DNA from: Halostella salina
GTDB taxonomy: Archaea > Halobacteriota > Halobacteria > Halobacteriales > Natronoarchaeaceae
DNA: 64,000 nucleotides
Direction: 5' to 3'
NCBI RefSeq assembly: GCF_003675855.1
Contig: NZ_RCIH01000006.1
Coordinates: 186,001 to 250,000, forward strand
Shown piece by piece: positions 39,537-55,097 of this stretch; positions within the stretch are counted from its first letter, which is position 1, and each line of letters opens with the position of its first letter. The notes under the pieces are model-generated. The model saw only the letters and a list, made by a program, of their open reading frames with translations, was not told where the DNA came from and made no database searches. The position numbers and the translations under genes were made by a program.

Positions 39537-39611
39537 GGGTTGGTGGTCTAGCCCGGTTATGACGGCTCCTTCACACGGAGCAGGTCGGCGGTTCGACTCC
39601 GCCCCAACCCA
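39537..39611 (+). tRNA. tRNA-Val (anticodon CAC)
   Basis: 75 bases fold as a full cloverleaf: acceptor GGGTTGG (39537-39543) with CCAACCC (39604-39610), D stem GTC/GAC, anticodon stem GCTCC/GGAGC around TTCACAC with anticodon CAC at 39572-39574, and T stem GGCGG/CCGCC around TTCGACT. The discriminator is A at 39611. CCA is not encoded. A T-rich box lies 26 bases upstream. A partial copy of the 3' end is found 121 bases downstream. Confidence 0.97.
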
Positions 39612-53036: not shown

Positions 53037-53138
53037 GCGGGACGGGAGCGTCGCCGTCGCGATCGGATCGAGCGCGGGCGAGCGCCGCTGTTCGCCCGTA
53101 GCGTGTCCCTTTTGGTTCCGTGGTCCTCCGGGACTGGT

Positions 53139-54278
53139 ATGCAGAACGTCGACGCCGCCGGCCTCGGGATCGGCGACGACCATCCGCCGCGGATCATGGG
53201 CGTGCTGAACGTCAGCGAGGAGTCGCCGTACGACCCCTCGGTGTACGACGACCCCGCCGAGGCGGCGGCGTACGTCGACGAGGCGCTGATCGGCGAGGGC
53301 GCGGACATCGTCGACGTGGGGCTGGAGTCGGCGAACAAGCGGTTCGAGGTGCTCTCCGCCGAGGAGGAGCTCGACCGGCTCGACACCGCCGTCGCGGCGA
53401 TGGAGCAGACGAGCGGCGACGCCGTCTTTTCCATCGAGACGCGCTACGCCGAGGTGGCCGACGCGGCGCTCTCGCGGGGGTTCGATATGGTCAACGACAT
53501 CTGCGGCTTCGCGGACCCCGAGATGCCCGCGGTCTGTCGGGAGCACGACGTCGCTGTCGCCAAGATGGCCAGCCCCCCGGACCTCGAACGCCCCGGCGCG
53601 GTCGAGGAGGTCGACGACATCTACGACGCGCTGACGCGCAACGGCCTCACCGACAAGACGATCATCGACCCGGCATTCGGCGGGTGGAGCGAGGACAAGA
53701 CCCTCGAACACGACCGCGAGACCTTCCGCCGCCTGCGCGAGTTCCGCGGGCTGGACCGCCCGCTCCTCGTCTCGATCAACCGCAAGAACTTCCTGAAGGA
53801 GGTCGCCGGCCGGTCGACCGAGGAGGCGCTCCCCGTCAGCCTCGCCGCCACCTCGATGGCCGTCGAGCGCGGCGCGCACGTCGTCCGGACGCACGACGTG
53901 GCCGAGACGCGCGACGCCGCGCTCATCGGGAAGGAGTTCGCGCGGGACCGACTCCGCGACGGCGACGACGTGACCGTCGAGGAACTCGACGTGACGACCG
54001 TCGGCGAGGCGCGGCGACACCTGGAGCGACTCGGCGTCGACCCGGACGCCGCCACCGACTGTACGGTGCGGGTGTTCGAACTCGACGGGCTGGCCGACGA
54101 GACGGCGGCGGCGCTGTCGACGGCCGCCGCGGACCGGGACGCGACGTTCGTCGACGGTCGCGATGGCGCGCTGCTGGCCGGGACGCCCGCCGAAATCGCG
54201 GGCGTCACCGCCGCCGTCGCCGAGCGTGCCCCGGATTTCCGGGCGACCGAACGGCGCATTCGGGACGCTCTCAGCTAA
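53139..54278 (+). CDS. folP: dihydropteroate synthase-like protein
   Basis: A 379-residue protein. DHPS motifs in order are IMGVLNVSEESPYDPSV, DIVDVGLESANKRFE, DMVNDICGFADPEM, IDPAFGGWSED and RPLLVSINRKNFLKEVAGR, then ERGAHVVRTHDVAETRDA. These build the TIM barrel that condenses a pterin diphosphate with p-aminobenzoate. A C-terminal segment of about 105 residues is extra. The ATG at 53139 is the start with the normal spacing. Together with the next gene (a pterin diphosphokinase) it would supply folate-type cofactors, although haloarchaea also have a separate fused FolCP, so the exact acceptor may differ. Confidence 0.87.
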   Translation: MQNVDAAGLGIGDDHPPRIMGVLNVSEESPYDPSVYDDPAEAAAYVDEALIGEGADIVDVGLESANKRFEVLSAEEELDRLDTAVAAMEQTSGDAVFSIETRYAEVADAALSRGFDMVNDICGFADPEMPAVCREHDVAVAKMASPPDLERPGAVEEVDDIYDALTRNGLTDKTIIDPAFGGWSEDKTLEHDRETFRRLREFRGLDRPLLVSINRKNFLKEVAGRSTEEALPVSLAATSMAVERGAHVVRTHDVAETRDAALIGKEFARDRLRDGDDVTVEELDVTTVGEARRHLERLGVDPDAATDCTVRVFELDGLADETAAALSTAAADRDATFVDGRDGALLAGTPAEIAGVTAAVAERAPDFRATERRIRDALS

Positions 54279-54290
54279 GAGAAAACTTAT

Positions 54291-54363
54291 GCCGGATGGC
54301 TGTGAAAGCCCGCGTGGTAGCCGGAAGGGCATCCGGGTAGGGGTACACGGACGCCACTCCGGC
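54291..54363 (+). ncRNA. structured RNA candidate between folP and mptE
   Basis: The spacer 54279-54410 can fold strongly. GCCGGA (54291-54296) plus TGGC (54297-54300) pairs with GCCA (54353-54356) plus TCCGGC (54358-54363) with one bulged C, ten base pairs in total. Inside, CCGGA (54321-54325) pairs with TCCGG (54332-54336) around AGGGCA. Two alternatives compete: CCGGATG (54292-54298) with CATCCGG (54330-54336), and GGCT (54298-54301) with AGCC (54307-54310). An ATG at 54289 also opens a 41-residue basic frame that overlaps the mptE start (ATGA). RNA is the better reading; it may be a cis regulator of mptE or a small RNA. Confidence 0.45.
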
Positions 54364-54410
54364 TCACGAAACTACGGGATCCTGACGACGCTATCTCCCC
54401 AGCGACAGCT

Positions 54411-55097
54411 ATGAACTTCGACGAGTGGAACCCCGTCTACGAGGCGATCCTCGCCGACTTCGGCTTCGACCGGACGGCCGACGAGCGCGCCCGCGACCTG
54501 CTCGCGGACCTCGCGGAGCCGTTCGACGAGGCCCGCCTGCCGCCGTTCGCGGGGGCGACCGTCGCCATCGCCGGAGCCGGCCCCTCGCTCGGGGACGAAC
54601 TTGCCGCGGCCCGCGAGGCCGACGTGGTGGTCGCCGCGTCGACGGCGGCGGACGTGCTCGCGGAGGCGGGCGTCGAGGTGGACCTGATGACGACGGATCT
54701 CGACAAGAACGTCGACACCGCCGTCGCGCTCTCGGAGCGTGGCGTCCCGGTCGCGGTCCACGCGCACGGCGACAACGTCCCGGCGGTTCGCTCGGCCGTC
54801 CCGCGGTTCGCCGACGAGTTCCTCCTGCCGACGACGCAGGCCGAACCCGTCGGCCCGGTCCGGAATTTCGGCGGGTTCACGGACGGCGACCGCGCCGCCT
54901 TCCTCGCGGACCACTTCGGGGCCGCCGAACTCCGGTTCCCGGGGTGGTCGTTCGACGACCCCGCGGTGGACGACCTGAAGGCCCGAAAACTGGACTGGGC
55001 CGAACGGCTGCTCCGGTGGCTCGAACGCCGCCGCGACGAGCGGTTCGCGGTGCTGGACGGCCGGCGCGGCGGTATCGAACCCGTGCCGGGCGCGTAA
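54411..55097 (+). CDS. mptE: 6-hydroxymethylpterin diphosphokinase MptE-like
   Basis: A 228-residue protein of the MptE family (DUF115). It begins MNFDEWNPVYEAILADFGF, then VAIAGAGPSLGDEL, the nucleotide-binding Gly loop, VDLMTTDLDKN and HAHGDNVPAVRSAV, and FGGFTDGDRAAFLADHFGA. It transfers diphosphate from ATP to 6-hydroxymethyl-7,8-dihydropterin, the substrate of DHPS, so it belongs with folP just upstream. The ATG at 54411 follows a structured spacer of 132 bases and overlaps the end of a short frame there. Confidence 0.92.
   Translation: MNFDEWNPVYEAILADFGFDRTADERARDLLADLAEPFDEARLPPFAGATVAIAGAGPSLGDELAAAREADVVVAASTAADVLAEAGVEVDLMTTDLDKNVDTAVALSERGVPVAVHAHGDNVPAVRSAVPRFADEFLLPTTQAEPVGPVRNFGGFTDGDRAAFLADHFGAAELRFPGWSFDDPAVDDLKARKLDWAERLLRWLERRRDERFAVLDGRRGGIEPVPGA

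Follow-up and report, generated by a model that had tools for sequence, protein, structure and literature searches.

The window analysed here, a stretch of 64,000 nucleotides from Halostella salina, carries on its forward strand the dihydropteroate synthase gene folP (53103–54278; TIGR01496, E = 1e-50; PF00809) and an mptE-like gene (54411–55097; PF01973, E = 4.5e-15). Both domain assignments confirm that the spacer at 54279–54410 lies between folP and mptE, as had been proposed in an earlier reading made from the letters of the DNA (hereafter the sequence-only reading). No Rfam family matched the spacer or the small RNA described below, even at E = 10, so that the comparison with H/ACA and other known RNA models yielded nothing; the sole Rfam match in the window is a tRNA-Val (CAC) at 39537–39611. 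An H/ACA guide RNA was also rejected on the structure itself, in which the internal loop measures about one base per side and the ACA is not constant. A plasmid collection searched with the spacer gave no match. The folding energy of the whole spacer was no better than that of dinucleotide shuffles (z = -1.18; 24 of 200 shuffles were equally good), and folding energy alone is therefore no justification for the findings reported here. The spacer is also covered by a 41-residue frame that had been considered as a leader peptide. This frame exists but is broken within the genus, which excludes the leader peptide: one locus lacks the ATG (L002), one contains a stop (L005) and two have shifted frames (L003 and L004).

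Using blastn with the spacer as query we found a match in 32 of 59 relatives belonging to many families. In these relatives the element was always located directly before mptE, even when folP was not adjacent. A covariance model detected it in 327 of the 392 genomes of the host’s order (303 of the 345 good-quality genomes) and in 76 of 95 genera. In a phylum-wide sample of 247 genomes all 41 matches fell within this order, with none in the genomes sampled outside it. Named records carrying the element belong to Haloferax, Halobellus, Halorussus, Halalkalicoccus, Halogeometricum and Halostella. For the mptE-linked loci, mptE was found downstream of the element in 131 of 131 cases examined. The distance from the loop of the element to the ATG varied from 35 to 266 nt, and no conserved expression platform was found between loop and ATG in these loci.

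Alignment of the loci revealed the pattern GAGAAA(A/G)(C/T)TTAT, followed by about 25 variable bases and a conserved core GG(A/T)AGCCGGAAGGGC..CGGGTAGGGGTACNYG..GCCAYTCCGGCYCA. In H. salina the first part corresponds to a BRE-like GAGAAA and the TATA element CTTATG (54279–54291, forward strand); it is kept across genera and fits the haloarchaeal BRE/TTWT pattern (PMC4983044). The distance between the TATA element and the start of the loop is 46–51 nt in these genes, with a mode of 48. From the TATA spacing we predict transcription to start at about 54316 (54315–54317, forward strand). The extent of conservation would place the 3’ end at 54372, giving a small RNA of about 57 nt (54316–54372, forward strand); for comparison, a 58-nt RNA, HM42_V, lies beside folP in Haloferax mediterranei. 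Promoter signals conserved at a fixed spacing, together with stand-alone copies that have a TATA element and a T-run, are in keeping with an independent unit, and we predict that the spacer is a small RNA gene with its own promoter.

All pairing arms named in the sequence-only reading are present in the DNA (GCCGGATGGC at 54291–54300, GCCACTCCGGC at 54353–54363, CCGGATG at 54292 and CATCCGG at 54330). The closing stem drawn from the first two is nevertheless not conserved: the bases 54291–54300 belong to the TATA box and the stretch directly behind it, precede the predicted start of the RNA and vary between species. What holds of the proposed structured RNA is that a conserved structured RNA precedes mptE; its hairpin is a different one, formed by 54320–54330 with 54353–54363. 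In this hairpin the 5’ arm of P1 (GCCGGAA, 54320–54326) pairs with CTCCGGC (54357–54363), with double compensatory changes in 6 of 7 pairs across species; H. salina forms six of them, the seventh being A-C. P2 is formed by GGC (54328–54330) and GCC (54353–54355), and double changes were found at all three pairs. The apical part holds the invariant loop GGGUAGGGGUAC (54335–54346; all on the forward strand), within which GUA and UAC can form a weak inner stem around GGGG. The automatic RNAalifold fold from a MAFFT alignment was wrong, with the indels of P2 misaligned, and we tested a structure named by hand instead. With this P1/P2/P3 structure, 6 pairs showed double changes in 27 sequences and 12 of 15 pairs did so in 66 sequences. 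In the larger set, whose alignment was fitted to the structure model and is biased towards it, 93.1% of cells were paired versus 81.7% in shuffles (0 of 500 as good) and at most 61% in slid controls. The comparison of aligned spacers that the sequence-only reading had called for thus gave strong compensatory changes for the P1/P2 hairpin and no conserved pairing for the stem it had drawn.

Copies of the loop also occur away from mptE, with their own promoters, at unrelated loci. In one family (f7; loci L085, L086, L087, L097 and L100) the hairpin GGTGGACAG-CGGGTAGGGGTACTCG-..CTGTCCACC has its own TATA element. This second type of sRNA has a nine-pair stem and adjoins genes for acyl-CoA dehydrogenase, pan/polyprenyl synthetase or EF-2. 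In Halorussus (genus g19) and genus g27 the RNA is reduced to the invariant loop on a stem of 5–9 bp, with a T-run, and recurs in up to four copies per genome (L089, L103 and L117 in G037; L364–L366 in G089; further L118, L122, L123, L125, L128, L129, L132, L369, L371 and L373). The TATA element of the minimal copies lies about 33–34 nt before the loop. T-stretches are known terminators in Haloferax (PMC7237163). Some g27 genomes (G037, G089 and G107) keep stand-alone copies while an mptE-linked copy was not detected in them. The stand-alone copies indicate that the working unit is the hairpin presenting GGGUAGGGGUAC.

The archaeal 16S rRNA has a GGGGTAGG-like stretch in its h23 loop; mimicry of the rRNA by the loop was an idea only and was dropped after another match had appeared. 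When the genomes were scanned for the 12-mer, the reverse complement, GTACCCCTACCC, turned up upstream of one gene family. In the genome of H. salina the 12-mer has exactly two sites, namely the sRNA loop and, reversed, the leader of an S-layer glycoprotein gene (C3:252465–252476). There the first base of the motif is 110 nt from the start codon, and the encoded protein carries the TIGR04207 surface-glycoprotein signal and matches NF041335, the ArtA-dependent S-layer glycoprotein. When leaders of TIGR04207 genes were collected across genera, those of almost all csg-type genes contained NNACCCCTACCC. The first 12 nt predicted for the S-layer glycoprotein mRNA (GUACCCCUACCC) are a perfect complement of the loop, in H. 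salina as well as across the order. In 89 of 93 leaders 26–29 nt separate the motif from the first T of the TATA element upstream. A transcription start would be expected at this distance, and from the spacing we place the putative start of the S-layer mRNA at the motif. The distance from the motif to the signal peptide, on the other hand, varies from 86 to 197 nt. The site thus keeps its place relative to the predicted mRNA 5’ end and not relative to the start codon.

The presence of sRNA and target was also compared between genomes. Five genomes of f4 genera in which the S-layer motif was not found (G011, G076, G108, G118 and G142) were also without the sRNA and without the 12-mer on either strand. 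In a few sRNA-bearing genomes (e.g. G053 and G181) the motif was not found in the S-layer genes checked, and one genome (G146) has the motif with no convincing match to the sRNA. In genus g21 (L142, L379, L382 and L383) an exact GTACCCCTACCC is located directly before the ATG of a different gene, possibly as a second target or by chance. Within the S-layer leader, a further conserved stretch, ATGGTGGCAGTAGCGAGTA, lies 3’ of the pairing site (1513–1545 of L102 and equivalents) and encodes no conserved peptide.

A changed loop is accompanied by a changed S-layer mRNA 5’ end in at least four genera. The loop TGGTAGGAGTAC of genus g53 stands opposite GTACTCCTACCA (12 of 12 positions) or GTACTCCTACCG. 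In genus g63, GGGCAGGGGT is opposite ACCCCTGCCC and GGGCAGGGGC opposite GCCCCTGCCC; the corresponding combinations are GGGTAGGGGC with GCCCCTACCC in g29 and GGATAGGGG with CCCCTATCC in g37. For genome G140 the loop CGGTAGGGGTAC gave the prediction GTACCCCTACCG before the S-layer leader was fetched, and this sequence was then found. Of the other one-sided core changes most still allow a G-U pair, and in Natrialbaceae-type genomes bases 1 and 2 of the target often lack a partner. We carried out a permutation test on 55 distinct rows from 37 genera using ten core positions; loops and targets had each been selected by their distance to the consensus and not to each other. The observed number of core pairs was 546 of 550, compared with 534.1 ± 1.3 for permuted targets, and none of 20000 trials was as good. 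With one row per genus, a design that controls shared ancestry only partly, one of 20000 trials reached the observed value. Most loop-target pairs are invariant, and the co-variation consequently rests on about four to five lineages. Judged by genome comparison, loop and target retain their complementarity through compensatory changes, as is expected of a trans-acting base-pairing sRNA. In two genomes (G223 and G267; loops L222 and L238) loop position 4 and its target base are both changed, and in G223 this position has also changed along with its partner in the inner GUA/UAC stem. This suggests that the free-loop fold of the sRNA is under selection as well.

On these comparative data we consider it very probable that the spacer encodes a trans-acting sRNA with its own promoter that base-pairs with the S-layer mRNA at its 5’ terminus, protection of this end being the most likely action. 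The sRNA would be transcribed from its promoter in the folP-mptE spacer and fold into a bulged hairpin presenting GGGUAGGGGUAC. The weak GUA/UAC stem would open to allow full pairing, and the loop would base-pair in vivo with the first 10–12 nt of the S-layer glycoprotein mRNA. The duplex would cover the 5’ end and could shield this very abundant mRNA from decay directed at the 5’ end, with RNase J as the putative antagonist of the sRNA; pairing possibly also tunes ribosome loading. Leaders differ two-fold in length, yet the pairing site keeps to the predicted 5’ end, so that the sRNA is likely to act on the 5’ end itself. With the site anchored in this way, and by analogy to FasX and ska, protection is favoured over occlusion of the start codon. 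Pairing of the sRNA FasX with the 5’ end of the ska mRNA stabilises this mRNA in Streptococcus pyogenes (PMC4691137). As in that case, the predicted target is an mRNA that encodes an exported protein and would be bound at its 5’ end. The two RNAs are not homologous: the present one is archaeal, would pair through a hairpin loop where FasX uses a CU-rich strand, and is found order-wide with co-variation.

That the effect on the S-layer mRNA is stabilising is somewhat favoured, at slightly better than even chances. The same sRNA and pairing could instead repress, with the duplex at the 5’ end blocking ribosome loading or recruiting a nuclease and in this way limiting S-layer synthesis. Many sRNAs that pair with leaders are repressors, FasX itself represses one target while stabilising another (PMC4691137), and in many leaders a conserved AUGGUGGCAG directly follows the pairing site. 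Against this, the position of the site follows the predicted transcript start and not the start codon, 86–197 nt away, and in Haloquadratum the S-layer mRNA ranks with the most strongly expressed mRNAs, csg heading the protein-coding genes in the study cited (PMC5496347). We regard repression as the less probable outcome, though one to be taken seriously. An effect at the level of DNA is quite improbable. Here a single factor would bind GGGTAGGGGTAC at both the S-layer and the sRNA promoters, and parallel changes of the two promoter-near sites with a changing factor would mimic compensatory changes. Such an operator does not readily explain why the orientation is always opposite at the two loci, why the site is always found in the loop of a hairpin with co-varying arms, why stand-alone copies at unrelated loci have T-runs, or why most one-sided core changes leave a G-U pair.

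The position of the element raises the question of a role in cis. The sequence-only reading had interpreted competing helices as a switch upstream of a gene of pterin synthesis, and a riboswitch or RNA thermometer in the mptE 5’ UTR would be in line with a compact, conserved fold that precedes mptE at every type-I (mptE-linked) locus, also where folP is not adjacent. The THF, preQ1 and Moco riboswitches are likewise compact folds upstream of pterin-pathway genes, but the present RNA differs from them in lacking an Rfam match at E up to 10 and in having stand-alone copies and a predicted trans target. We consider such a cis-element very unlikely. The competing helices are not conserved, no known riboswitch class was matched, and a purely cis linkage fails owing to the stand-alone paralogues with their own promoters at unrelated loci. 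The widely varying loop-to-ATG distance without a conserved expression platform also argues against it, and the riboswitch reading is further disfavoured because changes in the otherwise invariant loop are matched by changes at the 5’ end of the mRNA of another gene, that of the S-layer glycoprotein, which is unexpected for a pterin riboswitch. A trans-acting sRNA does not account for the main copy being strictly linked to mptE. The linkage would fit a reversed direction of action, in which the abundant S-layer mRNA serves as trans-factor or sponge on the mptE leader and couples one-carbon metabolism to envelope synthesis. With stand-alone copies in several genera, including the three g27 genomes without a detected mptE-linked copy, we give this little credence.

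Returning to the trans-acting sRNA, a candidate transcript has been listed before. HM42_V of H. mediterranei, an intergenic RNA of 58 nt next to folP (HFX_2904), figures in a set of sRNAs verified by RNA-Seq, most of which had been found through their homology to sRNAs of H. volcanii (PMC5852579). By hand count, about 58 nt of the Haloferax sequence lie between the predicted start and the position directly behind P1. HM42_V thus resembles the H. salina sRNA as predicted in intergenic neighbourhood and length, and on these two features it is probably the same RNA. Its entry in that set describes no function, family, structure or S-layer target (PMC5852579), and our literature search found neither the 12-mer or its complement in this context nor a link of HM42_V to the S-layer. 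Earlier transcriptomes may have filed the sRNA as a long mptE leader, since a novel intergenic RNA had to lie at least 250 nt away from a gene start to be counted (PMC4983044). The haloarchaeal sRNA132 and s479 are also intergenic regulatory RNAs (PMC6560208, PMC8155600). Tested haloarchaeal sRNAs are mostly species-restricted, with 22 of 27 deleted genes confined to H. volcanii (PMC3956466), in contrast to the order-wide sRNA described here; none of the 27 has a number neighbouring that of folP or mptE. In Haloferax vesicles the S-layer mRNA is the most enriched mRNA, and both RNase J and the sRNA H3.2 were found there with it (PMC10927574).

On this reading the RNA falls into an established class, that of base-pairing sRNAs acting in trans; unusual are its order-wide conservation, a target at the 5’ terminus of an mRNA and the co-evolution of loop and target. 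The S-layer protein is usually the most abundant surface protein, and we know of no account of how haloarchaea set its level. Archaeal sRNAs known to us are mostly poorly conserved and have few proven targets. We give even odds to the broader proposal of a haloarchaeal sRNA family, spread through the order, that governs the 5’ terminus of the S-layer mRNA and whose loop co-evolves with its target. If true, it would surpass in breadth of conservation any cognate trans-sRNA/mRNA pair known to us in archaea, and no earlier proposal of a post-transcriptional regulator for the S-layer is known to us. The question is directly testable, as it involves a single deletable gene of about 57 nt, one predicted 12-nt site and natural compensatory mutants, and genetic tools exist for Haloferax. 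The sRNA may serve as a separable ‘RNA cap’, shielding an mRNA that is among the most abundant of the cell. Most haloarchaeal mRNAs are leaderless, and the system would provide a model for the protection of mRNA 5’ ends in this group.
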